The notes beneath the pieces were generated by a model, which was not told the DNA's origin, searched no databases, and saw only the letters and a program-made list of their open reading frames with translations. Source: Rhizobiales bacterium GAS188 (lineage in GTDB: Bacteria > Pseudomonadota > Alphaproteobacteria > Rhizobiales > Beijerinckiaceae). Taken from it: a stretch of 64,000 nt of DNA. Below, in pieces: positions 16,246 through 62,689 of this stretch. The position numbers were made by a program, and so were the translations under genes. The stretch covers positions 1,488,001 through 1,552,000 of the forward strand of contig FNSS01000001.1 of assembly GCA_900104855.1 (NCBI GenBank), in the 5' to 3' direction. Position 1 is the stretch's first letter. The number at the start of each line of letters is the position of its first letter.

Positions 16246-17823
16246 ATGTCGAAAATGAAGCTCGCGATTGCAGCTTGCCTCGCGCTCGCTGTCAGCATGG
16301 GTGCCCCCGCGCACGCCAAGTCCATCCGCTGGGCATCACAAGACGATGCGGCGACGATGGACCCGCATGCCTTCAACCACGGCATGACGACGACCGTGCT
16401 CCAACATATCTATGAAGGGCTCGTCCGCCGGGATCGCGACATGAAGATCGAGCCGGCGCTGGCGATCTCGTGGACCCAACCCGATCCGAAGACATGGCGT
16501 TTCAGGCTTCGCCCGGATGCGACATTTCAAGACGGTACGCCATTCTCCGCCGAAGATGTCGTGTTCTCGATCAAGCGCATCCTGTCGGACACTTCCGACA
16601 TGAAGGTGTTTGCCGCCTCGATTGCCGATGTGAAGGCAATCGATCCGTCGACGGTCGATGTGATAACCACCTTCCCGAACGCCGCGCTCATCCAGTCCCT
16701 TCCGGAAGTGCGGATCATGTCGAAGCTTTGGTGCGAGACCAACAAGGCCGCCAATCCGGCCGACATCAAGCAGAGCAAAGACAATTTCGCCACCTTGCAT
16801 GCGAATGGCACCGGGCCATTCAGGCTCGTCATGCGCGAGCCCGGGATCAGGACCGTTCTCGCGGCAAACGATAGCTGGTGGGATCACACCAGACCCGATG
16901 TCAGCGAGGCCGAGCTCGTCATCGTGCCGACACCCGCGACTCGGGTCGCGGCGCTGCTCTCGGGCGAGGTCGACTTCGCCTATCCGATACCGATCCAGGA
17001 CATCGGCCGCGTGAACGGTGACGCCAATCTGAAGGTGCTGCAGGGGCCAGAGATCAGGACGATGTTCCTCGCCATGGATGTCGCGCGCGACGAGCTTCTC
17101 TATTCAAACGTCAAAGGCAAGAACCCGTTCAAGAATCAACGCGTGCGGCAGGCGATCTATCAAGCGATCGATGTCGACGCGATCAACACCCGCATCATGC
17201 GCGGATCCGTGACACCGACCGGGAGCATGATCGCTCCCGGCATCAACGGCGTCGACGCTTCGCTACAGCCTCGCGCCTATCCCTATGATGTCGAGGCCGC
17301 CAGGCAGCTCCTGGCCGATGCCGGCTACAAGCAAGGTTTCGAGACGACCCTCGACTGCCCGAATGATCGCTATGTCAGCGATGAGCGCGTGTGCCAGGCG
17401 ATCGTCGGCATGCTTGCCAAGCTCGACATCAAGGTCACCTTGAATGCGCTGACCTCGACGCATTTCTTTCCGAAGATCGGTGGCCGCGACACGAGCTTTG
17501 CCTTCTTCGGCTACTCCCCGCTCAATATGGATGCCTACAACACCTTGAGCGTCGTCATGCATTCGCCGAAGGCCGGCAATGGGCAATGGAATGTCGGCAA
17601 CTACTCCAATCCGGACTTGGATGGCGCAATCGACGCTTCCTTGAGCGAAATGGATCCGCTTCGCCGTACAGCCTGGGTCACCAAGGCGTTGAGCATGCAT
17701 CGCAAGGACGTCGCGCAGATCCCGCTCTACCAGCAAGGTCTCGCCTGGGGCATGCGCAAATCGATCGATACGCCACTCAGGACCGACAACAACGTCAACC
17801 TCGCCTTGTTCAAGATCCGTTGA
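16246..17823 (+). CDS. Dipeptide-type (SBP family 5) ABC solute-binding protein
   Basis: 525 residues. The ATG at 16246 follows GGAAGGAGGA; longer upstream frames lack an RBS. A Sec signal peptide ends AHAK near residue 22. Domain order is the normal one for DppA/OppA proteins: N-terminal strand and IYEGLVRRD, WRFRLRPDATFQDGTPFSAEDVVFS at about 75-100, GTGPFRL, VRQAIYQAID, and the C-terminal EAARQLLADAGY followed by the NYSNPDLD and DPLRRTAWV segments. It probably captures a peptide-like or amide-linked compound. No permease or ATPase is encoded next to it. The next gene, an M20 amidohydrolase, may act on its ligand. Confidence 0.87.
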   Translation: MSKMKLAIAACLALAVSMGAPAHAKSIRWASQDDAATMDPHAFNHGMTTTVLQHIYEGLVRRDRDMKIEPALAISWTQPDPKTWRFRLRPDATFQDGTPFSAEDVVFSIKRILSDTSDMKVFAASIADVKAIDPSTVDVITTFPNAALIQSLPEVRIMSKLWCETNKAANPADIKQSKDNFATLHANGTGPFRLVMREPGIRTVLAANDSWWDHTRPDVSEAELVIVPTPATRVAALLSGEVDFAYPIPIQDIGRVNGDANLKVLQGPEIRTMFLAMDVARDELLYSNVKGKNPFKNQRVRQAIYQAIDVDAINTRIMRGSVTPTGSMIAPGINGVDASLQPRAYPYDVEAARQLLADAGYKQGFETTLDCPNDRYVSDERVCQAIVGMLAKLDIKVTLNALTSTHFFPKIGGRDTSFAFFGYSPLNMDAYNTLSVVMHSPKAGNGQWNVGNYSNPDLDGAIDASLSEMDPLRRTAWVTKALSMHRKDVAQIPLYQQGLAWGMRKSIDTPLRTDNNVNLALFKIR

Positions 17824-51130: not shown

Positions 51131-52825
51131 CTAGGCCGCTAATGCCGCATCGAGCGCCTTCGTGGCCCGGCGCAAGGCGCAGAGGAGACGGTTGCGCGCC
51201 CGCCTCGCGCCGACGCGCAGGAGGAGCTGTGCGTCGGAGCCGGGCTCCGCCTCGGCGAGGTCGCGCAGCTTCTGCAGCGCCGGCCAGGCCGGCTGCGGCA
51301 AGGCCGGGTCATGGCTGAAACGGTCTCCCTCGGTGTAATCGAGCGGCATCAGGGCGCGCGAGACTTGCATCAGGGCAGCGTTGATGCGCGTGAGCCTTGC
51401 GGCATCGTCGCCGGGGTCGCGGGCGGCGAGCGCCTCGGCCTTCACGCGCAAGCTCTCGGTCGAAGCCACCAGGTTGTCGATGCCGAGCGCCGCGCGCAAC
51501 CGCGGAGCGAGCCCGTTCAGCTCGCCGAGGAGCGCCGCCGCGTGAGCCGCATGGTCGAGCGGCAACACCTTGTCGGTCAACAGACGCCACAGGCTCGCGA
51601 CCACGACACGCGTGTCGCGCGCCAGGAACTGCTCGTCGACCTTGTCGAGGAGATCGTGAGGCGTATGCCACCACCAGCCGAGCGGATTGCGCATCTTCAC
51701 CGGGCTCGGCGGCTGATGGCTGATGCTGCCGTACATGGACGGAATGCCGACGCCCCAGAAAGACTGGTCGCTGGAGCGCGACGGACGCTTGCCCTCGTGG
51801 CGCTGCCCGGTCTCGGCGAGCGTCACCGTCCGGGCGAGACCGACGAGCTCAGCGACGACCCCGTTCTCGGTGAGCACGGTGGCGCCGATGCCGCCCGTGG
51901 AATCGACATTCACATGCGCGACGCAGCGCCGGTCGAGCTCCTCGAAATTCTCGTCCACATACCAGGCCGAGCCCGAATAGCGCCCATGCGAATGGCCGGA
52001 CCAGAAGCAGATGCGCAAGCCGCGCTGCCACTCGCCGCGGCGGGAAGCGAGCAGGCGCGCGGCTTCCAGCATGGTGGCGTTAGCGCTGCCATTATCCATG
52101 ACGCCGAAATACCAGGTGTCGTGGTGCCCGGAGAACAGCACGAAGGGCGCCTCTTCGCCACCTCCGGCGTCGAGCTCGCCGACCAATAGCGGCGTCTTGC
52201 GCCAGCCCGTATCCACTTGCGCATGCAGCGTCACGGAAAGCGCGGCGCCCGCCCGCAGCTTGGCGCGCAGGGCTTGCCCATCGGCTTGCGAGATCGTGCA
52301 GGCGACCGTCGACGGCAGCTCGGCGAGAGTCTCGTCCGACGGATTGCCCCAGACCGGCGAGATGCACATCTCGTGCAGATGCTCATGCGGCGAGACGTGC
52401 AATTGCCCGGCGGCGCCGGCCGCCTTGGCACGCGCCGCGACCGCCGGGCTCGCTATGCCGTCGACGAGCACGATCTTGCCGCGGCAATCGGCGCTCGCGA
52501 AATCGGCCTGAATCCCCTCGCCGAGATCGACGAGCACTCCCGTCAGGCCGCCTGTCGGGGAGGGGCGCGAGAAGGAATGGGTGATGCTTTCGAGCACGCG
52601 CCCATCGGCCTCGACCCGCGAGGCTCCCGGCAGGCTGATATAGGCATCATGCGAGATGAGCTCGGTGCGATAGCCGTAAGCGTCGAGGCAGGCCTTCAGA
52701 TAGCGGAAGCTCTCGAGCTCCTCCGGCGTGCCGGAGAGTTTCACGCGCTTGGCGAATTCAGCGCAATGGCGCATCAGCTCCTGGCCGCTGACCGCGGCGC
52801 CGATCTCTGACGCTAGCTCGCTCAT
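51131..52825 (-). CDS. M28-family protein with GHS in place of the GEE motif (copy 1)
   Basis: 564 residues, an M28B (carboxypeptidase II-like) layout with a PA-type insert at about 95-205. Metal ligands appear as His234/Asp236 (SGHHDTW), Asp244 (MDNGSANAT), Asp308 (HVNVDSTGG) and His387 (WWHTPHD). The segment that normally carries the catalytic Glu and a metal-ligand Glu reads FWSGHSHGRYSGSAWY, with His278-Ser279 instead. No signal peptide. It overlaps its paralogue by 4 bp. It may be an amidohydrolase with an altered centre, or a non-peptidase homologue. Confidence 0.82.
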   Translation of the reverse strand: MSELASEIGAAVSGQELMRHCAEFAKRVKLSGTPEELESFRYLKACLDAYGYRTELISHDAYISLPGASRVEADGRVLESITHSFSRPSPTGGLTGVLVDLGEGIQADFASADCRGKIVLVDGIASPAVAARAKAAGAAGQLHVSPHEHLHEMCISPVWGNPSDETLAELPSTVACTISQADGQALRAKLRAGAALSVTLHAQVDTGWRKTPLLVGELDAGGGEEAPFVLFSGHHDTWYFGVMDNGSANATMLEAARLLASRRGEWQRGLRICFWSGHSHGRYSGSAWYVDENFEELDRRCVAHVNVDSTGGIGATVLTENGVVAELVGLARTVTLAETGQRHEGKRPSRSSDQSFWGVGIPSMYGSISHQPPSPVKMRNPLGWWWHTPHDLLDKVDEQFLARDTRVVVASLWRLLTDKVLPLDHAAHAAALLGELNGLAPRLRAALGIDNLVASTESLRVKAEALAARDPGDDAARLTRINAALMQVSRALMPLDYTEGDRFSHDPALPQPAWPALQKLRDLAEAEPGSDAQLLLRVGARRARNRLLCALRRATKALDAALAA

Positions 52826-54564
52826 GTGCAGGCTCCCATGACCAATCGCGTCGCCGCGCGCAGCGCTGCCACATAGCGGTTCTGGCCGCGCATCAGCTCG
52901 ACTTCGCCGACCGGCCGCAATTCGGCGGAAAGCTGCGGCAGCTCGGCGGCGATAGCGAGCGTCGGCAGCGGCGGCACCGTATAGGCCGGGTCGTGGCGGA
53001 AGCGCGGCTCGCGCGTGTAGTTGATCGGCACCAGGAGGCGCGACAGCCCGAAGATCGCGGCATTGCGCGAGGCGGCCGGGGCCTTCGAGGTCGAAAGCTG
53101 CTCGAGGGCCGTCTTCAGCTCCTGCGTCGCCCGCCGCGCCGCGCTGAGATCGGCGAGGCCGTTCGACTGCTTCTCGTAAGCCTCGATCGTGGCCAGGAAT
53201 TCATCGCAGGTCGCAACCCAGTCGAAGGGCAGGATTTCCGGATTGGCGACCCGCAGGACGCCGAGCAGATAGATGCGGATATCCTTGAGCAGGATGTCGC
53301 GATCGGCGATCTCAAGCGTGTCGTTCTCGGTGTGCCAGGCGATGTTGGCGCCGCAGCCCGAGACGTCATAGTAGTTCTTCTGCGCCCGCAGCGCCTCCGG
53401 CATGGTGGAGGACAGCATGAGGAAGCTCGGCAGCCCGATATTGTTGAAGCTGTAATCGCCGGCTTGCGGGGGCCGCATCGTCCTCACTTCGGCATCCGGC
53501 ACGATATCGCGGATCGCCTGCGTGGCGAGCGCCGCGCTCTCGCTGAAGGCGCGCGTCTCGTGATAGCTCGTGGCCCAGCGGCAGCCTGGGCTGTCGCAAT
53601 TGATCTGGGCGACGCAGTTCTCGTCCAGCTCGATGGCGAAGCGGTCGGTGAACCAGGTCGATCCGGCATAGCGGCCGGTCGAATGCCCGGGCCACCAGGC
53701 GAGCTTGACCGAGCGGCGTAAGGATTGCCGGTTGGCGAAAAGCACACGCGCCAGCTCCATCAGGGTCGCGTCGCCCGTGGCATTGTCGCCGACCCCGACA
53801 TCCCAGCTGTCGTAATGGCCGTGCACCAGCACGAAGGCATCGGGTTCCTTGGCGCCGCGAATGGTGGCGACCGGGATCTTCTGGGGAAACCAACCTTCCT
53901 GCATTTCGGTGCGGATGGTCGCCTCACCGCCCGCTTCGGCGAGCGCCATGAGCTTTTGCCCGTCGGGATTGTTGACGGCCACCACCGGGATCTTGGGCTT
54001 CCTCGGCAGGTCGGCAAGATCGGGCGAGCCCCATATGGTGGTGCAAGTGCCCCAGTGGATGTCGATGCCCGGATTGACCGCGATCAGGCCGATGCCGCCC
54101 CATTCCTCGATCAGCGATGTGAGCGCGGGATTGCCAAAACCCGACATGACCACGATCTTGCCGCCGACCTTGGCCTTGAGCTCATCGAGCGAGCGGATGC
54201 TGCCGCCGAACAAGGTGGCGATGTCGCGGTTGTAGCTCCTCAACGCCTTGGGGTTCGCGGTCAGCTTGACGAGCTTGGCGGTGCGGCCCCCGGACACCGA
54301 AAGCGCCGAGGAGGGGGGCTTTGCCCGATAGGTGACACCGCCGGCCGTGACCGAAGCCGATAGCGGGATCGACAGATAGAGGCTCGGCTCATGCACCTCG
54401 ACCGGCACGCCGGCGCCGCGCAGCCTCTGCACGATCACATCGGCCGAGCGATTGACGTCCTCCGGGCGCCAGCGCGGCAGGGTGGAGAAGCTTTCCACCA
54501 GCTCCCAGGGCAGATCGAGGCTCGCGGCATCGAGGAAACGGCGTTCGATATCGCTGATCGGCAC
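52822..54564 (-). CDS. M28-family protein with GHS in place of the GEE motif (copy 2)
   Basis: 580 residues, paralogue of the next gene with the same layout: PA-type insert about 90-230, then His250/Asp252 (HGHYDSW), Asp260 (GDNATGD), His294-Ser295 in WWPGHSTGRYAGSTWF, Asp324 (NCDSPG) and His411 (WHTENDT). The canonical Glu-Glu pair is again replaced. No signal peptide, so a cytoplasmic enzyme. First gene of the minus-strand operon, diverging from the permuted solute-binding protein. The two copies may form a heteromer. Confidence 0.82.
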   Translation of the reverse strand: MPISDIERRFLDAASLDLPWELVESFSTLPRWRPEDVNRSADVIVQRLRGAGVPVEVHEPSLYLSIPLSASVTAGGVTYRAKPPSSALSVSGGRTAKLVKLTANPKALRSYNRDIATLFGGSIRSLDELKAKVGGKIVVMSGFGNPALTSLIEEWGGIGLIAVNPGIDIHWGTCTTIWGSPDLADLPRKPKIPVVAVNNPDGQKLMALAEAGGEATIRTEMQEGWFPQKIPVATIRGAKEPDAFVLVHGHYDSWDVGVGDNATGDATLMELARVLFANRQSLRRSVKLAWWPGHSTGRYAGSTWFTDRFAIELDENCVAQINCDSPGCRWATSYHETRAFSESAALATQAIRDIVPDAEVRTMRPPQAGDYSFNNIGLPSFLMLSSTMPEALRAQKNYYDVSGCGANIAWHTENDTLEIADRDILLKDIRIYLLGVLRVANPEILPFDWVATCDEFLATIEAYEKQSNGLADLSAARRATQELKTALEQLSTSKAPAASRNAAIFGLSRLLVPINYTREPRFRHDPAYTVPPLPTLAIAAELPQLSAELRPVGEVELMRGQNRYVAALRAATRLVMGACT

Positions 54565-54957
54565 GAGAAGCTCCCCTTGGGCAGTGATTGGCTCTGAACC
54601 GCATCATCTTTTGCCTGGTTCGAACGGCGAACCGATGTTTCACTGAGTTTCGTTTGCCGTCAACCCGATTTCTGCGGCGCTCAGCGTTGCCGCAAGCAGA
54701 GCAGCTATGAGCCAAGCAATTGTGCAACGCCTGTCGATTTCCGCGCCACCGACAGATGGTTCGCCGTTCGCCATCCACCATGCCAGGGCATGCGGAGCGT
54801 CGTTTTCGCAATTCTGCTTGTGGGCAGGCGAAACATCGTTTTAGATGGCCGCAATAGTTGCGTGGAGGACGGCTTCATCGTCGTGATGTCCACGCGGAGA
54901 GGCTCGCGGTTTGCCCGCAGCTCTCGAAGGCATGGGGGATGCAAGGGGATGAAAGCC
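54565..54957. promoter_or_regulatory. Divergent promoter region with candidate operators
   Basis: 393 bp without a gene. GGTTCG-AACGG-CGAACC (54617-54633) is a perfect 6+6 inverted repeat. A related GGTTCGCCGTTCGCC, inside GATGG...CCATC, lies at about 54756-54776. These are candidates for the IclR-type regulator encoded at 60.7 kb, which would coordinate both operons. Confidence 0.35.
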
Positions 54958-56622
54958 ATGATGCTGTCTCGCCGCACGCTTCTCGCCTCGGTCTGTCTCG
55001 CCGCGCTGCGGCTGCCCGCCTTCGCCGCCACCGCCGGCGACCAGATCCGCAAGCTCGTCATCGTCAGCGCCGCCCAGGCCTCGGACCCGCAGGAGTTCCA
55101 GGCGGCGCAGCTCCTGGCTCAGGCCTGGCGGCAGCTCGGTCTCGACATCGAGGTGCGCGGCATGCCGCGTCCCCAGCTCGCCGACCTCGTCTGGAACACG
55201 CGCGAGAAATGGGACATGACGATGTGGCGCATGGTCGGCCGGCCTGAGCGCAGCGATCCGGACGAGTTCGCCTATAACCTCTTCAATCCAGCGACCGCCG
55301 CCACCGGCTATGATTTCGTGGGCTACGACAACCCGAACTACATGAAGATCGCCGAGGCGCAGCGCTCCGAGCTCGACCCGAAGAAGCGCAAGAAGCTGAT
55401 CTTCGAGGCGCAAGACGCCATCAACAAGGACCAGCCCTACATCTTCCTGGTCTATCCCAAGAACGTGCTCGCCTTCGACAAGAGCGTCTGGAAGCCGGAG
55501 AGCGTCGTCGAGCAGAGCGGCATCGGCATCCGCTCATTCTGGACCTTCCTGCGCGCCGAGCCGGTCGGCGCCCAGAAGGACATGATCTGCAACGCGGCCG
55601 AGGCGATGCTGGCGCTCAACCCGCTCTATATCAGCGGCGCCATCGATTCCTGGCTGACCGAGATCGTCTGGGATCGGCTGATGCGCATGGGCCCGGACGG
55701 CCTGCCGATCCCCTGGGCGGCGCAGACGGTGACTCAGGTCGATCCGACCACGGTCGATTGCGTGCTGCGGCCGGGCCAGAAATGGCATGACGGCAAGCCC
55801 ATGACCGTCGATGACGTGGTATTCTCCTTCAAGGCGCCGGCCATGGGCGACAAATCGCCGATGTACAAGCCCTTCGTGGCGAGCATCGCCGATGTCGCCG
55901 CGACCGATGAGCAAACGGTGCGCTTCAAGCTCAAGACGCCGAGCGCCGCCTTCGCAGCCTCGACGCTCGCCAAGATCAACCTCATTCCCAAACATGTCTG
56001 GGAACCGATCCTCGCCGATCTGATGACCAAGCCGCAGAATGTCGAGACCTATCAGGAAGAGCATCCGATCGGCTCCGGCCCGTTCAAGGTGGCGCGCTTC
56101 AAATTCACCGAGGAGGTCGTGCTCGAGGCTAACAAAGACTATTGGGAACCACCCCGCATGGCGCGCTGCATCTTCCGCGTCATCACCAACACGGGCGCTG
56201 CGCTCGGCATGCTGCCCAGGGGCGAGGTCAACTTCCTCACCGATTATCGCGGCGACCCGAAGCTGCTCACCGATCTCGCCAAGCAGAATCCGAATATCGA
56301 GGTGGTCTCGACCATCGATATGGGCTTCCGCTTCGTGGCGCCGAACCAGCGCCGCCCGCCCTTCAACGACCCGGCCTTCCGCCGCGCCTTGTCCTACGCC
56401 ACCAACCGCCAGCTGATGGCGGCCGCCGCCTGGAACGGCTTCGCGGTGCCGGCGAACTCGATCATCTCGCCGGCCCTCAAATTCTGGAGCAAGCCCGGCA
56501 TCGACGACCTCAAGGTCGATATGTCGACCGCCAAGAAGATGCTGGAGGATGCGGGCTATGCGCTGGTCGGCGGCAAGCTGCACTATCCGGACGGCGTGAA
56601 GGAGACGCTCGCGGCAAACTGA
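54958..56622 (+). CDS. Circularly permuted dipeptide-type (SBP family 5) solute-binding protein
   Basis: 554 residues; AAGGGG lies 9 nt before ATG 54958. A signal peptide (RRTLLASVCLAALRLPAFA) spans residues 5-23. Residues about 31-200 match the C-terminal segment of DppA-like proteins (QLLAQAWRQLGLDIEV, MTMWRMVGRPERSDPDEF, VGYDNPNYMKIAEAQ, DPKKRKKLIFEAQDAI). Residues about 205-530 then give the normal N-terminal part (ALNPLYISGAIDSW, VLRPGQKWHDGKPMTVDDVV, GSGPFKVARF, FRRALSYATNRQL). The chain ends at the KKMLEDAGY helix that normally precedes the C-terminal segment. It is followed by DppBCDF genes and should be their binding protein. Confidence 0.85.
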   Translation: MMLSRRTLLASVCLAALRLPAFAATAGDQIRKLVIVSAAQASDPQEFQAAQLLAQAWRQLGLDIEVRGMPRPQLADLVWNTREKWDMTMWRMVGRPERSDPDEFAYNLFNPATAATGYDFVGYDNPNYMKIAEAQRSELDPKKRKKLIFEAQDAINKDQPYIFLVYPKNVLAFDKSVWKPESVVEQSGIGIRSFWTFLRAEPVGAQKDMICNAAEAMLALNPLYISGAIDSWLTEIVWDRLMRMGPDGLPIPWAAQTVTQVDPTTVDCVLRPGQKWHDGKPMTVDDVVFSFKAPAMGDKSPMYKPFVASIADVAATDEQTVRFKLKTPSAAFAASTLAKINLIPKHVWEPILADLMTKPQNVETYQEEHPIGSGPFKVARFKFTEEVVLEANKDYWEPPRMARCIFRVITNTGAALGMLPRGEVNFLTDYRGDPKLLTDLAKQNPNIEVVSTIDMGFRFVAPNQRRPPFNDPAFRRALSYATNRQLMAAAAWNGFAVPANSIISPALKFWSKPGIDDLKVDMSTAKKMLEDAGYALVGGKLHYPDGVKETLAAN

Positions 56623-56669
56623 TGCGCATGATCAGTGGACAGGGATTCGAGGCGCAACGCTCGTGCGCA

Positions 56670-56830
56670 TTCCTTCTCCCGCTCTTTTGCGGGAGAAGGT
56701 GCCGAGGCGAAGCCGAGGCGGATGAGGGCGGTCGAGCGCTTCACCGGCGTCCCTCATCCGCCTTCACTACTCAGAGTCTTTCTATTCAAGACTTGCACCT
56801 TCTCCCGCCTCAAGTGGCGGGAGAAGGAAG
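56670..56830. repeat. REP-like repeat pair between binding protein and dppB
   Basis: CCTTCTCCCGC...GCGGGAGAAGG hairpins occur at both ends (about 56672-56698 and 56800-56828). GGATGAGGGC and its complement CCCTCATCC lie inside. Being within an operon it may lower dppBCDF expression relative to the binding protein. Confidence 0.8.
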
Positions 56831-56851
56831 GCGCGCGGGAGCTGATCCCGC

Positions 56852-57826
56852 ATGAGCTTTGTCGGCAGGCGGTTCCTGCACATGCTCTTCGTGCTGTGGG
56901 CGATCGCGACCATCATGTTCCTGATGTTTCGCCTGATGCCGGGCGATCCGAGCACCGCCTATATCGACCCGAACTTCACGGGCGAGCAGCGTCAGCTGGT
57001 GCTGCAGCAATTCGGCCTCGATAAGCCGCTCTCCGAGCAATATCTCATCTTCCTCAAGAACCTCGCCCAGGGCGAGTTCGGCCTGTCCTTCCGCTACCGC
57101 CAGCCGGTGCTCGGCCTGATCCTGTCGGTCCTGCCGAACACGCTGCTGTTGACGATGACGGCGCTGTTCTCGGCCTATATCTTCGGTGGCCTGTTCGGAG
57201 CGCTGCTCGCCTGGAAGCGCGGCTCCACATTCGAGGCCGTGTCGATCCCGATCGTGCTGACGACGCGCGCCATGCCGGATTTCTGGCTCGGCATGCTGGT
57301 GCTCGCCGTGCTCGCCTTCGGGCTCGGCTGGTTTCCGTCGGGCGGCGCCAATGTGGCGGGCGCGACCTACGCGTCCGAATGGGGCCGCATCTTCTCGATC
57401 GATTATCTGCGCCATCTGGCGCTGCCAGTGCTCACGCTCGCGATCTTCCTGCAGGGCCTGCCGGTGCTGCTGATGCGCTCCAACATGCTCGAGGTGATGC
57501 GCGAGGAGTTCGTCACCATGGCGCGCATGAAGGGACTGCCGGAGCGCAGCATCATGCTGCGCCATGCCGCGCGGAACGCGCTCCTGCCCCTCGTCACCGC
57601 CTTCGCCATCACCTTCGGCCAGCTCATCGGCAACAATGTCGTGGTCGAGACCGTGTTCTCCTGGCCGGGCCTCGGCCGCATGCTCGTCGATGCGGTCGCG
57701 AACAGCGATTATCCGCTGGCGCAGGGCGCCTTCCTGGTGATCGCCTTTGTGCTGGTGTTCATGAACTTCGTCGCCGATCTCGTCTACGGCCTGCTCGATC
57801 CGCGGGTGGCGCACGCACATGGCTGA
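56852..57826 (+). CDS. dppB: Dipeptide-type ABC transporter permease
   Basis: 324 residues, six hydrophobic segments. DppB/OppB features: MLFVLWAIATIMFLMFRLMP, GDPSTAYID, the LAQGEFGLSFRYRQPV loop and the EAA motif region (EFVTMARMKGLPERSIMLRH), then VVVETVFSWPGLGRMLVDAV. It pairs with DppC to form the membrane channel. The next gene starts 8 bp before its end. Confidence 0.88.
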   Translation: MSFVGRRFLHMLFVLWAIATIMFLMFRLMPGDPSTAYIDPNFTGEQRQLVLQQFGLDKPLSEQYLIFLKNLAQGEFGLSFRYRQPVLGLILSVLPNTLLLTMTALFSAYIFGGLFGALLAWKRGSTFEAVSIPIVLTTRAMPDFWLGMLVLAVLAFGLGWFPSGGANVAGATYASEWGRIFSIDYLRHLALPVLTLAIFLQGLPVLLMRSNMLEVMREEFVTMARMKGLPERSIMLRHAARNALLPLVTAFAITFGQLIGNNVVVETVFSWPGLGRMLVDAVANSDYPLAQGAFLVIAFVLVFMNFVADLVYGLLDPRVAHAHG

Positions 57827-58736
57827 GCCGCTCGCTCTTCCCCTCGCGCCGACCGAAGACGACAGGCGCCCGCGCCGCAAGGCAGCGGCGCTCCTCGCCC
57901 AGCTGCGCGACCCTTATGCGCTGATCGGCGTCTCGATCTACCTCGCCTTCCTCCTGGTCGCGATCTTCGCCGACGCGCTCGCTCCCTACAGCCCGACCGA
58001 CATCCTGTTCACCGATGACGGCCAGCTCGCTTCGGCCTTGCCGCCGAGCGCGGCGCATCTCCTCGGCACCACCAATCTCGGCCGTGACGTGTTCTCGCAG
58101 CTGGTGCTCGGCGCCAGGCCCTCGCTCTTCGTCGGCCTGACCGCCGCCACGGCGGTCGCGACGCTCGGCACCATCGCGGGCCTCGTAGCGGGCTATCTCG
58201 GCGGCTTCATCGACAGGGCGTTGATGCGGCTCGCGGACGTCATTCTCGGCCTGCCCTTCCTGCCCTTCGTCATCGTGACGATCGCCCTCACCGGACCCAG
58301 CCTGACGCATATCGTGCTCGCCGTGGCGCTGCTGCTCTGGCCCAACGCCGCGCGCGTCATCCGCAGCCAGGTGCTGACATTGTCGCAGCGCCAATTCGTC
58401 GAGGCGGCGCGGGTCACGGGCGCGAGCCCATGGCGCATCATCTTCGTGCATGTCGCACCGAATGTGCTCCCCCTCTCCTTCCTCTACGGCACCATCGCGG
58501 TCGGCTGGGCGATCCTGACGCAGGCGAGCGTCAGCTTCCTCGGCTTCGGCGATGCCGACGTCATCTCCTGGGGCACGATGCTCCAGGACGCCTATGCGTC
58601 GCAGGCGCTCGATCGCGGCCAATATACCTGGTTCGTGCCGCCCGGCATCTGCATCGTTCTCGTGGTGCTGGCCGGCTTCTTCATCAGCCGCGGCTATGAG
58701 GAGCTGCTCTTCCCCAAATTGAGGGACGATCGATGA
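57819..58736 (+). CDS. dppC: Dipeptide-type ABC transporter permease
   Basis: 305 residues with six hydrophobic segments. DppC features: LIGVSIYLAFLLVAIFADAL, HLLGTTNLGRDVFSQLVLGA, GLVAGYLGGFIDRALMRLAD and the EAA loop QFVEAARVTGASPWRIIFVH. It overlaps dppB and dppD by 8 and 4 bp, showing tight coupling. Confidence 0.88.
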   Translation: MAEPLALPLAPTEDDRRPRRKAAALLAQLRDPYALIGVSIYLAFLLVAIFADALAPYSPTDILFTDDGQLASALPPSAAHLLGTTNLGRDVFSQLVLGARPSLFVGLTAATAVATLGTIAGLVAGYLGGFIDRALMRLADVILGLPFLPFVIVTIALTGPSLTHIVLAVALLLWPNAARVIRSQVLTLSQRQFVEAARVTGASPWRIIFVHVAPNVLPLSFLYGTIAVGWAILTQASVSFLGFGDADVISWGTMLQDAYASQALDRGQYTWFVPPGICIVLVVLAGFFISRGYEELLFPKLRDDR

Positions 58737-59740
58737 CTGAGCTTCTCAGCGTCGAGGACTTTGCCGTGGCTTATCGCCTGGGCGAGACGAGCGTGCATGC
58801 CGTCGACGGCGTCGATTTCGCCGTGCCGACCGGCGCCATGCTCGGCCTCGTCGGCGAATCCGGATGCGGCAAGACGACCTTGGCGCGCGCCCTCATGGGG
58901 GTCCTGCCGGGCAATGCGCGCATCACGCGCGGCAAGGTGCGCCTCGAGGGCATCGACCTGACGGCACTGCCGCCGGGAGAATTGCGGGCGAGGCTCTGGC
59001 GCGACATCTCCTTCGTGCCGCAGACGGCGATGAACGCGCTTGATCCGGTCTATCGCCTGCGCGACCAGATGCGCGAGGTGCTGTGCCGGCGCGGCGGGCT
59101 CTCCAAGGGGGAAGCGGATGAGCGCGCCGCGAGCCTGTTCCGCGCCGTCGGCCTCGATCCGAGCCGGCTGATGGACTACCCGCACCAGTTCTCCGGCGGG
59201 ATGCGCCAGCGCGCCGCCATCGCCATGGCGCTGGCGCTGCGGCCGAAGCTGGTGATCGCCGATGAGCCGGTGACGGCGCTCGACGTAATCGTGCAGCGGC
59301 AGGTGCTCGACACGATCCGCGGCTTGAGCCTGGAGCTTGGCCTGTCGGCGATCGTGGTGACGCATGACATCAGCGTCGTCGCCTATCTCTGCTCGGTGGT
59401 CGCAGTGATGTATGCAGGCCAGATCGTCGAATTCGGCCCGACCGACAAGGTGATGCGCGAGCCGGCGCACCCTTACACCATGGGCCTGATGAATGCCTCC
59501 CCCGATCTCGAACGTGCCGACGCAGAACTGGTGCCGATCGAAGGGTCGCCGCCGAGCCTCGTGCAACCGCCGGCCGGATGCCGTTTCGCGGCGCGCTGTC
59601 CCTTCGCGCTGCCGGCCTGCTCGCAGGAGCGGCCGCGCATGATCGATGTCGGGGCCGAGCACCGGGCGGCCTGCATCCGCAGCGGCGAAGCCACGACGTT
59701 GCGCGCACAGGCGAGGGAGGCAGCGACATGGCGGCGATGA
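58733..59740 (+). CDS. dppD: Dipeptide-type ABC transporter ATP-binding protein
   Basis: 335 residues. Walker [15 protein letters not shown] (about residue 41), Q-loop FVPQTAMNALDPV, signature FSGGMRQRAAIAMAL, Walker B LVIADEPVTALD and switch His in VVTHDISVV. The C-terminal oligopeptide-transporter extension with a Cys cluster (CRFAARCPFALPAC) is present. It overlaps dppF by 13 bp. Confidence 0.9.
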   Translation: MTELLSVEDFAVAYRLGETSVHAVDGVDFAVPTGAMLGLVGESGCGKTTLARALMGVLPGNARITRGKVRLEGIDLTALPPGELRARLWRDISFVPQTAMNALDPVYRLRDQMREVLCRRGGLSKGEADERAASLFRAVGLDPSRLMDYPHQFSGGMRQRAAIAMALALRPKLVIADEPVTALDVIVQRQVLDTIRGLSLELGLSAIVVTHDISVVAYLCSVVAVMYAGQIVEFGPTDKVMREPAHPYTMGLMNASPDLERADAELVPIEGSPPSLVQPPAGCRFAARCPFALPACSQERPRMIDVGAEHRAACIRSGEATTLRAQAREAATWRR

Positions 59741-60717
59741 TCGAAGCCTCAGGCCTCACCAAGCTTTTTCCCGCGGCGCGCAGCCTGCGCCAGGCGCTGC
59801 GCGGCGAGTATCGCAACGTGCGCGCCGTGGACGGCATCGATCTGCGGCTGCAACGGGGCGAGAGCGTCGGCCTCGTGGGTGAGTCCGGCAGCGGCAAGAC
59901 CACGGTCGGCCGGCTGCTCCTGAAGCTCACGCCGCCATCGGCCGGCCAGCTCGCCTTCGAAGGCGAATCCCTCGATCATATGGACCGGGCGCGCACCTTG
60001 CGCTTCCGGCAGCAGGCGCAGCTCGTCTTCCAGAACCCGTATGACGCGCTCAATCCGCGCTTCAGCGTCCGCCGCTCGCTCACGGAGCCGCTGCGCAACA
60101 CCAAGGTCGATCGGGCGGAGCACGAGCCGCGAATCGCTGCGGCATTGCGCCTCGTTCAGCTCGACGATGCCGGGCGCTATCTCGACAGCCTGCCGCACCA
60201 ATTGTCGGGCGGCCAGCTGCAACGCGTGGTGCTGGCGCGCGCCCTTGTCGTCAAGCCGGTCTTCCTCGTCGCCGACGAGCCGGTCTCGATGCTCGATGTG
60301 AGCGTCCGGGCCGGGATCTTGAACCTGTTGCGCGATTTGAAGCAGAGGCTCGGTCTCACCGCCTTCTATATTTCCCATGACCTCACGCTCGTCCGCTATG
60401 TCTGCGAGCGCACGCTCGTCATGTATCTCGGCAAGGTGATCGAGGACGGGCCGACCGCCGAGGTCATCCAACGTCCCGCCCATCCCTACACCCAGGCCCT
60501 GATCAAGGCCGTACCGCGTCCGGATGTCGATCAGCCGCGCGACAACTTGCCGATCTCGGGGGCGATCGGGGATGCCGCCAATCCCCTCTCGGGATGCCGC
60601 TTGCGGGACCGCTGCCCGCATGCTTTCGCGCGTTGCGCCGAGGAGGAGCCTGCGCTCGTCGAAGTCTCACCCGGACACCGCGCCGCCTGCCATCTGCATA
60701 CGCAAGGGAGAGCCTGA
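59728..60717 (+). CDS. dppF: Dipeptide-type ABC transporter ATP-binding protein
   Basis: 329 residues; GAGGGAGG precedes ATG 59728 (longer frames upstream are the wrong frame of dppD). Walker A GESGSGKTTVGRLL, Q-loop LVFQNPYDALNPRF, signature LSGGQLQRVVLARAL, Walker B FLVADEPVSMLD, and the Cys-rich C-terminal extension CRLRDRCPHAFARC. Second ATPase of the importer and last of its membrane/ATPase genes before the IclR regulator. Confidence 0.9.
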   Translation: MAAMIEASGLTKLFPAARSLRQALRGEYRNVRAVDGIDLRLQRGESVGLVGESGSGKTTVGRLLLKLTPPSAGQLAFEGESLDHMDRARTLRFRQQAQLVFQNPYDALNPRFSVRRSLTEPLRNTKVDRAEHEPRIAAALRLVQLDDAGRYLDSLPHQLSGGQLQRVVLARALVVKPVFLVADEPVSMLDVSVRAGILNLLRDLKQRLGLTAFYISHDLTLVRYVCERTLVMYLGKVIEDGPTAEVIQRPAHPYTQALIKAVPRPDVDQPRDNLPISGAIGDAANPLSGCRLRDRCPHAFARCAEEEPALVEVSPGHRAACHLHTQGRA

Positions 60718-60741: not shown

Positions 60742-61524
60742 ATGGACTACACGGTCGCTGCCGTCGATCGCGCCCTCAAGCTGCTCGAGGTCGTCGCCGA
60801 AAACCCCAATATCGGATTGACCGAGCTTGCCCGCCTCACCGGGGCCACCAAGACTCTCGCCTTCCGCATGGCCTCGACGCTCGAGGCGCAGGGCTATCTG
60901 CTCAAGGACCCGACGACGCGCAGCTACACGCTCGGCTACAAGCCGCTCTATCTCAGCGAGCGGATGCAGCACGAATCGCCGCTGCTGCGCGTCGCCCAGC
61001 CTTTTCTCGACGATGTGTCGGCGCGCACGCGCGAGAATGTCAGCCTCCTGGTGCGCGAGGGCCATCACATGGTGTGCATCGCCATCCGCCAGTCGCCGCA
61101 GCCGATCCGCCTTTATGCCGAGCTCGGCCGGCAAGGGCCCTTGCATGTCGGCGGCGGCCCGAAGCTCTTGCTCGCCTACGCGCCCGACGACGTGCAGGCA
61201 GCGGTGATCGAGGCCAAGCTCGACGTCTTCACGCCCGAGACCATTGTCGAGCCCAAGCGGCTGCGTGCTTTGCTCAAGCGCATTCGCGACCAGGGCTACA
61301 ATATCAGCCATGGCGATCTCGATTCCGGCGCCTTCTCGGTGGCAGCGCCCGTGCACGACCATGCCGGACGGGTCATCGCCTCGATCAGCGTAGCGGGCCC
61401 GCAAGCGCGCCTGACCAAGGATCTCGAGAAGCTCTATGTGCGCATGCTGCTCGATGCTGCCGACGAGATCTCGACCCGGCTCGGCTGGCGCGCGCGCCCC
61501 GATCGGCTTGCGATTAGTGCCTGA
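60742..61524 (+). CDS. IclR-family transcriptional regulator
   Basis: 260 residues. N-terminal winged helix (AVDRALKLLEVVAENPNIGL, then LARLTGATKTLAFRMASTLE, residues 5-55). The IclR effector domain follows (PFLDDVSARTRENVSLLVRE, GPLHVGGGPKLLLAY, DQGYNISHGDLDSGAFSVAA). It lies inside the operon between dppF and an M20 peptidase and likely controls this cluster and the divergent M28/Hyu operon. Confidence 0.88.
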   Translation: MDYTVAAVDRALKLLEVVAENPNIGLTELARLTGATKTLAFRMASTLEAQGYLLKDPTTRSYTLGYKPLYLSERMQHESPLLRVAQPFLDDVSARTRENVSLLVREGHHMVCIAIRQSPQPIRLYAELGRQGPLHVGGGPKLLLAYAPDDVQAAVIEAKLDVFTPETIVEPKRLRALLKRIRDQGYNISHGDLDSGAFSVAAPVHDHAGRVIASISVAGPQARLTKDLEKLYVRMLLDAADEISTRLGWRARPDRLAISA

Positions 61525-61546
61525 CAAGAAAAGAATGGAGAGGAAG

Positions 61547-62689
61547 ATGACCGAAGCTCGCGTGAATGCCGAGCCCTTCGAGGGCCACAAGCTGCTCGAG
61601 GAGATCCGTGCCTGGGTCGAGATCGAGAGCCCGACCACCGACGCCGAGGCGGTGAACCGCATGGTCGACAAGGTGCAGGCGGATGCCGGCGCCGCCGGCG
61701 CCCCGACCTGCCGCATACCGGGCCGCGACGGCTTCGGCGACCATCTCATGGTCTCTTCGCCCTGGGGCCGCGACGAGGACGGCATCCTCATCCTCAGCCA
61801 TCTCGACACGGTGCACGAGATCGGCACGCTGGCCGGCCCCCTGCCATTCCGAGTGGAGGACGACATCGCCTATGGGCCGGGCATCTACGACATGAAGGGC
61901 GGGGCCCTGATCGCGCTCGCGGCCTTGCGCCACCTGATCGGCACGGGGCGGCGCAGCAAGCTGCCGATCCGCCATCTCTTCGTCTCGGAGGAAGAAGTCG
62001 GCAGCCCGACCTCGCGCCAGTACATCGAACGCGAGGCGGAGCGGGCCCGCTATGTGCTGGTGACGGAGCCGGCGCGCGAAGGCGGCAAGGTGGTCACGGC
62101 CCGCAAGGGCACGGCGCGCTTCGACATCCGCGTCACCGGCTGCTCGGCCCATTCCGGCTCCCGCCATGAGGATGGCCGCAGCGCCATCAAGGAGCTCGCC
62201 CGCCAGATCCTCGATCTCGAGGCGATGACCGATTATGCCTCGGGCGTCACCGTCAATGTCGGCGTGATCCGGGGCGGCACGCGCGCCAATGTGGTGGCGC
62301 AGCACGCCTCGGCCGAGATCGACATGCGCGTGCCGAACCCGGAGATCGGCGCAAAGGCGATCGCGCGCGTGCTCGCCATCAAGCCCTATGACAAGGATGT
62401 CGTGGTCGAGGTCAGCGGCGGGCTCAACCGGCCGGGCTATGAGAAATCGCCTCGGATCTCCGAGCTCTTCGAGCATGCGCGCGGCCTCGCCTCGGAGATC
62501 GGCTTCGAGCTTCAGGACCTGGCGACAGGCGGCGGCTCGGACGGCAATTTCACCGCCGCGCGCGTGCCGACCCTCGACGGCCTCGGCGTCGACGGCAAGG
62601 GCGGCCATACCCATCACGAGCAGATCTACATTTCCTCGCTCGTGCCGCGCGCCACCTTGATGCTGCGCCTGATGGAGACGCTGGGGTGA
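61547..62689 (+). CDS. M20-family metallopeptidase (glutamate carboxypeptidase-like)
   Basis: 380 residues; GGAGAGGAAG precedes ATG 61547. Two-zinc centre of M20A/CPG2-type enzymes: His85 and Asp87 in LSHLDTVH, Asp115 in YDMKGG, Glu148/Glu149 in FVSEEEVGS, and the final His in GKGGHTHHEQIYI. The dimerisation insert spans about 185-295 (TGCSAHSGSRHEDGRSAI). It probably cleaves a peptide or N-acyl amino acid imported by DppBCDF in the cytoplasm. Confidence 0.88.
   Translation: MTEARVNAEPFEGHKLLEEIRAWVEIESPTTDAEAVNRMVDKVQADAGAAGAPTCRIPGRDGFGDHLMVSSPWGRDEDGILILSHLDTVHEIGTLAGPLPFRVEDDIAYGPGIYDMKGGALIALAALRHLIGTGRRSKLPIRHLFVSEEEVGSPTSRQYIEREAERARYVLVTEPAREGGKVVTARKGTARFDIRVTGCSAHSGSRHEDGRSAIKELARQILDLEAMTDYASGVTVNVGVIRGGTRANVVAQHASAEIDMRVPNPEIGAKAIARVLAIKPYDKDVVVEVSGGLNRPGYEKSPRISELFEHARGLASEIGFELQDLATGGGSDGNFTAARVPTLDGLGVDGKGGHTHHEQIYISSLVPRATLMLRLMETLG

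Follow-up and report, generated by a model that had tools for sequence, protein, structure and literature searches.

The window analysed here is a stretch of 64,000 nucleotides from Rhizobiales bacterium GAS188, and its positions are counted from its first letter. On the + strand, one open frame (54958-56622) encodes a complete solute-binding protein (SBP) of 554 residues whose two sequence pieces appear in circularly permuted order. An AGGGG motif is seen by eye about 9 bases 5′ of the ATG at 54958, and a second in-frame ATG occurs at 54949. Residues 1-23 (54958-55026, +) resemble a signal peptide with a twin-arginine-like SRRTLL motif, its limits and cleavage site being estimated by eye; residues 1-22 are also the sole stretch of at least three residues with a pLDDT below 50 in the AlphaFold2 model computed from alignment A3. 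An earlier sequence-only reading of this DNA had pointed to an uninterrupted frame, a ribosome-binding site and a signal peptide, and all three are found again, the latter two by eye.

The gene stands in a locus rich in transport and peptidase functions. Downstream on the + strand follow a DppB/OppB-type permease (56852-57826; PF00528 and PF19300), a DppC/OppC-type permease (57819-58736; PF00528), a DppD/OppD-type ATPase (58733-59740; PF00005 and PF08352) and a DppF/OppF-type ATPase (59728-60717; PF00005 and PF08352), the last in a frame that opens at 59578 and with a start chosen by eye. By Pfam, the window therefore holds the two permeases and two oligo_HPY ATPases that define a DppA/OppA-type operon. 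These are followed by an IclR-type regulator (60742-61524, +; PF01614 and PF09339) and an M20-type peptidase of uncertain start (61436-62689, +; PF01546 and PF07687). The divergent neighbour on the − strand is an M28-type peptidase (52822-54564; PF04389), recurrent in the close group of relatives, and a second M28-type peptidase (51131-52825, −; PF04389) lies beside it. Beyond these peptidases, upstream and on the other strand, are genes for an MFS-like transporter (by eye) and for hydantoinases B and A. The gap between the SBP and permease genes (56623-56851) contains a palindromic intergenic repeat with perfect 14-nt arms GCGGGAGAAGGTGC and 92 nt between them. Genome-wide, the 15-mer GCGGGAGAAGGTGCC occurs 104 + 99 times, whereas its reversed control is absent (0); many of the first sites listed are facing pairs with a spacing of 86-88 nt, and the repeat is called a REP/BIME-like element by resemblance. 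An Rfam scan of the locus returned nothing at the gathering threshold.

The inverted domain order proposed by the sequence-only reading is borne out by matches to a canonical profile and to the sequence of a solved structure. On a profile of 516 columns built from 14 canonical proteins, nine of them from the window's genome, residues 36-184 (55063-55509, +), hereafter the moved piece, match the C-terminal third of canonical SBP_bac_5 (columns 358-503, i-E 7e-19), while residues 205-551 (55570-56610, +), the main piece, match the N-terminal two thirds (columns 29-355, i-E 2e-68). This agrees with the expectation of a C-terminal-type segment in front and a canonical start near residue 205. By phmmer against PDB sequences, residues 255-539 fall on 70-349 of AppA (1xoc) and residues 56-176 on 383-498. 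The Pfam family SBP_bac_5 (PF00496), which had been suggested as a check, does not align as a single collinear match but in two stretches of inverted order, the best covering residues 251-541 on positions 3-285 of 368. The whole-protein score is 240.9 bits against a curated cut-off of 32.4; the NCBIfam DppA equivalog gives 78.4 bits, below its cut-off of 1005. The protein encoded at 16246-17823, put forward as a comparison of normal order, serves as such: it spans PF00496 positions 1-366 in one stretch and is collinear with the canonical profile, of which it is itself one of the 14 building proteins. One detail did not hold, as the chain continues for 20 residues beyond KKMLEDAGY. In terms of the family fold, the moved piece would supply the latter half of domain III together with the final segment of domain I, and the main piece domain I, domain II and the first half of domain III.

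A search for homologues sharing this order, likewise suggested earlier, yielded 47 permuted proteins with a common breakpoint. In the first order test, two inverted pieces were present in 33/33 full-length members; this count left out L003, L017 and L022, which are complete or incomplete canonical proteins, and L048, truncated where its contig ends, and neither L015 (cut) nor L024 and L026 (duplicates of L011 and L014) were entered. Addition of eight and then six further plasmid loci gave a larger set from Alphaproteobacteria and haloarchaea, in which exactly two inverted pieces were found in 47/47 permuted proteins, against one collinear match in 44/44 canonical proteins. Since the same profile set both labels and was itself made from 14 of these 44 canonical proteins, the content of this comparison is the shared breakpoint: the main piece ends at column 347-356 and the moved piece starts at column 344-371. 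In the 47 members, 20-25 columns of the canonical ends are absent at the junction on the profile, and are read as the lost inner signal peptide; the old C-terminus and the old mature N-terminus would be joined with little or no linker. The alignments place the new termini in a loop immediately ahead of the strand with which the last third of canonical chains begins. Judged by these comparisons, the window protein is confirmed as belonging to a genuine subfamily of SBP_bac_5 in which the circular permutation is conserved.

Members of this subfamily are scattered. Among 12 loci found, four relatives (L011-L014) match almost the entire query and L015 is cut by a contig end, the remaining loci being canonical or partial. 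At E ≤ 1e-60, one of four genomes of the genus matched, the window's own, and the three sampled congeners gave no match at this threshold. The same search matched at least 11 of 298 genomes in the family, at least 11 of 397 in the order and at least 13 of 385 in the class, counts which include the window's genome, come from partly overlapping samples and are based on three or four candidates scored per genome. Five rows of the order and class searches show one or two stops inside the match, and in the extracted ORFs these stand at the chain end. A phylum scan with the family profile at E ≤ 1e-90, a strict threshold with at most four candidates scored per genome, returned the window's own genome alone among 299, which does not imply absence elsewhere. 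Relatives from sampled genomes (28-67% identity) and from named plasmids (25-77%) are collinear with nearly the whole window protein. In PLSDB, the window protein matched 21 records at 1e-30, 19 of them over at least 80% of the query, and one of the 21, from Deinococcus peraridilitoris, has canonical order; for a haloarchaeal member, 43 records matched at 1e-25, and in 37 the match covers at least 80% of the query. Profile matches verified the permuted order at 14 loci on 13 plasmids, both alphaproteobacterial (Roseomonas marmotae, Ketogulonicigenium vulgare, Nitratireductor with two loci, Maritalea) and haloarchaeal (Halalkalicoccus, two species of Haladaptatus, Natrononativus, Halobaculum, Haloprofundus, Natrialba, Halarchaeum, Haloarcula), while for Neorhizobium, Microvirga and other plasmid rows it is read from collinear coverage alone. 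Among the annotated records of permuted proteins collected here, nearly all are named simply 'ABC transporter substrate-binding protein'. The window's genome itself has a large repertoire of SBPs: counting the window protein, the SBP family profile gives 65 matches in it at E ≤ 1e-20.

Phylogenetic trees were computed after canonical ORFs shorter than 480 residues, one duplicate locus and the partial rows mentioned above had been dropped. In a first sample of 41 permuted and 35 canonical proteins, the permuted ones form one side of a branch, with support of 1.0 for the main piece, 0.93 for the moved piece and 1.0 for both pieces together. In a wider sample (47 and 44 proteins), they again lie on one side with the main piece (FastTree 0.86, SH-aLRT 88.7) and with both pieces (FastTree 0.77, SH-aLRT 74.1, or 71 with a mixture model), where one change of state is needed. 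The moved piece alone (129 columns) places 12 canonical proteins inside the permuted group, at a node support of 0.66. As to whether the permuted proteins form a clade, the main piece and both pieces together point that way, with moderate support in the wider sample, and the moved piece alone does not in that sample.

A single permutation, in one ancient event, is the favoured though not proven origin suggested by these alignments and trees. Several independent permutations at the same loop would be compatible with the moderate support of the one-origin branch in the wider sample (SH-aLRT 71-89) and with the failure of the moved piece alone to recover one group. The best trees, from the main piece and from both pieces, nevertheless keep the permuted proteins on one side with one state change, and the breakpoint is common to them, so that repeated invention seems unlikely. 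It is still less likely that the gene arose by domain accretion, with the C-terminal fragment of a different SBP put before a truncated one and hence two ancestors within the superfamily. The incomplete concordance between the trees of the two pieces, as seen in the 12 canonical proteins placed inside the group at 0.66, could be taken in this sense; it is opposed by the presence of each part once only, with breakpoints that agree, by the same grouping from both pieces in the first sample and by one confident predicted fold, and the topology would be permuted in either case. As to the route followed by a single permutation, no duplication intermediate was noticed among the loci collected. In L012, the canonical SBP gene that immediately precedes the permuted one was considered as a trace of tandem duplication and rejected, its product having canonical order and 23-28% identity to permuted proteins in the main piece. 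Direct repeats in 54500-57000 are short, the longest pair being 32 nt long and 72% identical. Of its two copies, that at 55016-55047 overlaps the new N-terminus and that at 55946-55977 is inside the main piece, away from the breakpoints, so that a repeat-mediated origin is unsupported.

The locus probably moves between lineages. Among the 91 tree rows, the protein closest to that of the window comes from Roseomonas marmotae, listed under Rhodospirillales, with 76-77% identity. Its plasmid locus (L074:4211-17575) carries two M28 peptidases, the SBP, the importer, an IclR regulator, an M20 peptidase and hydantoinases B and A, as at the window locus. It is this nearest relative with a similar gene set on a plasmid, together with the congeners that lack a match, that argues for transfer.

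Most of the permuted genes examined lie near importer genes. Importer genes of relatives were identified by tblastn or annotation, and 24 stretches were compared (L011-L014 and L054-L073, the window's own included). Dpp/Opp-type importer genes were detected in 23 of them by tblastn with the window's genes, and in 20 the B-C-D-F order follows 3′ of the SBP gene as far as the contig reaches. Three arrangements differ, with importer genes in another order in L061 and on the opposite strand in L062 and L071, at a distance of 3.3 kb in the latter. The exception is an alphaproteobacterial member, L068, with housekeeping neighbours and no importer genes in its stretch. M28-type homologues occur in 15/24 stretches, and the SBPs of all 15 are at least 49% identical to the window's. 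Haloarchaeal loci show the SBP, two permeases and then ATPase genes, some with M28, M20, M81 or creatininase-family neighbours. In two haloarchaeal plasmid loci, L116:3941-6567 (Haladaptatus halobius) and L117:4001-6633 (Haloarcula), no importer genes were found in the 4-kb flanks, and a PAP2-family gene stands 3′ of the permuted SBP gene. The canonical-order SBP of D. peraridilitoris (L103:1-3921), directly preceded by an M28 peptidase gene and accompanied by permease genes, lies in a neighbourhood of the same theme.

Given this operon, the protein most likely serves an importer as ordinary SBPs do, despite the unusual order of its chain. In E. coli, DppA and its translocator work as a binding protein feeding an importer (PMC12136057, in part). 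The ligand would be bound between the lobes and then passed to the adjacent DppBCDF-type translocator. A main role as ligand sensor or periplasmic scaffold, without delivery to an importer, has in its favour the three members that lack importer genes in their stretch, the two haloarchaeal ones being followed by the PAP2-family gene, as well as the upstream canonical SBP of L012, which could serve the importer instead. Such a role is very improbable when importer genes accompany 23/24 permuted genes and when no canonical SBP ORF of at least 380 residues is present in 19 of the 20 stretches L054-L073, the one in L059 lying about 4 kb away.

The nature of the ligand can be addressed with low confidence. 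DppA and OppA proteins bind peptides with a free amine through an aspartate of domain III. In AliD, the amine-binding residue is D501 of that domain (PMC11192437, in part). The equivalent loop of the window protein reads E-R-S-D-P in the alignment, and arginine is present at column 416 in 41/47 permuted proteins versus 4/44 canonical ones. This arginine at the amine-binding loop, the M28 and M20 peptidase and hydantoinase neighbours, and the racemase, creatininase or aminoacylase genes found beside relatives together hint at a small N-blocked peptide, an amino-acid amide or a similar modified amino-acid compound, and not an ordinary peptide.

In 5/5 pairs of relatives, both pieces are under purifying selection: the dN/dS ratio is 0.07-0.24 over the full chain, 0.05-0.17 within the moved piece and 0.08-0.28 within the main piece (simple NG86 counts, dS exceeding 1 in two pairs). 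The joining of two neighbouring SBP fragments by misassembly, pseudogene fusion or a frame accident, for which the 65 SBP-family matches (E ≤ 1e-20) would be raw material, is ruled out for practical purposes by these ratios and by the same profile-verified order on 13 independent plasmid records and in sampled genomes, the window's own genome being assembled in three contigs. As a whole, it is highly probable that the gene encodes a secreted, permuted SBP of the SBP_bac_5/cluster C type that would keep the usual fly-trap, feed a DppBCDF-type translocator and probably descend from one ancient event.

The claim that the permuted chain closes one fold finds support in structure prediction. A first AlphaFold2 run with five permuted sequences was poor (pLDDT 48.6, pTM 0.38). 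Alignment A3, of 26 rows, was enlarged by a truncated member of the family and by canonical relatives, their translations unaltered but split into the two pieces; it gave one confident model (pLDDT 87.6, pTM 0.86), and a two-lobed fly-trap of the usual kind is most likely on this prediction. The cluster C fold has, besides its two lobes, an additional domain and a hinge of two strands. Foldseek against the PDB ranked cluster C SBPs first, with 1xoc on top (1.8e-19); the best 50 matches align 345-399 columns with a TM-score by query length of at most 0.51, which is taken as a sequential aligner following one piece only. A profile of 22 members matched 111 PDB sequences at 1e-10. For the best 60 of these 111, the strongest stretch of the match lies in the main piece, and none among these 60 is a solved relative with permuted order.

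Where the chain has been reopened bears on the topology of the lobes. In AliD, domain I comprises residues 29-63, 191-296 and 583-617, with domain III (297-582) forming lobe 2 (PMC11192437, in part); in EppA, domain III spans 303-530 and the last piece 531-563 (PMC7312458, in part). By these published limits, the canonical termini lie together in lobe 1 (PMC11192437 and PMC7312458, both in part). The break, some 160 columns short of the canonical C-terminus on the profile, would consequently fall inside domain III. Canonical chains have lobe 2 inserted into lobe 1; in the permuted chain, a continuous lobe 1 would be nested in lobe 2, which by analogy with AliD and EppA would carry the signal peptide or lipid anchor. 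A lipobox-like Gly-Cys was seen by eye near the start of 8/9 haloarchaeal members (outside the residues displayed for the ninth, L112), and in these the anchor would sit on lobe 2.

AppA, DppA, OppA and NikA are the closest known systems, since they share the sequence family in both pieces and the operon partners, and are the first Foldseek matches of the predicted model. The permuted proteins differ from these canonical cluster C SBPs in their inverted piece order and in new termini that would lie inside domain III. Strand order has also altered in SBP evolution through the strand dislocation that led from type I to type II folds, but that ancient change separates fold types and is not a permutation inside one sequence family. 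Natural circular permutation has been described for another SBP, the glucose-binding TpMglB-2 (Tp0684) of Treponema pallidum, a cluster B protein assigned to a proposed 'type Ic / cluster Bc'; spirochaetes and Gram-positive bacteria have relatives of it, and tethering was considered as a reason for the permutation (PMC4990184, in part). It differs from the present protein in cluster, in sugar binding and in family; the 22 members of A2 all match PF00496 at E ≤ 0.001 and TAT_signal (2/22) is the sole other Pfam family, which places them outside cluster Bc. No natural permuted SBP of cluster C was found among the matches listed in openly licensed PubMed Central papers, a weak negative, and the parts searched of PMC2588589, PMC12667903 and PMC9602780 contain no such case. 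The permuted cluster C version is perhaps undescribed, and an earlier description may exist elsewhere.

Peptide-type SBPs form a very large transporter family in which the two-lobe topology is usually treated as fixed. The permuted version looks like a real and working protein, present in many bacteria and salt-loving archaea, usually beside a complete import pump, and it goes unflagged by collinear profiles, being annotated simply as a substrate-binding protein. A bolder proposal, to be regarded as speculative and rather doubtful, is that reversal of the continuous, anchor-bearing lobe has changed the mechanics of delivery: tethering and the start of folding would occur through lobe 2, docking and opening would differ, and a selected advantage would have maintained the permutation in bacteria and archaea. 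If true, these proteins would stand apart as a topological class of their own among peptide-type importers, 'cluster Cc'. Having persisted in archaea as well as bacteria, the natural permutation offers a ready-made test of how chain connections matter for closing, docking and folding.
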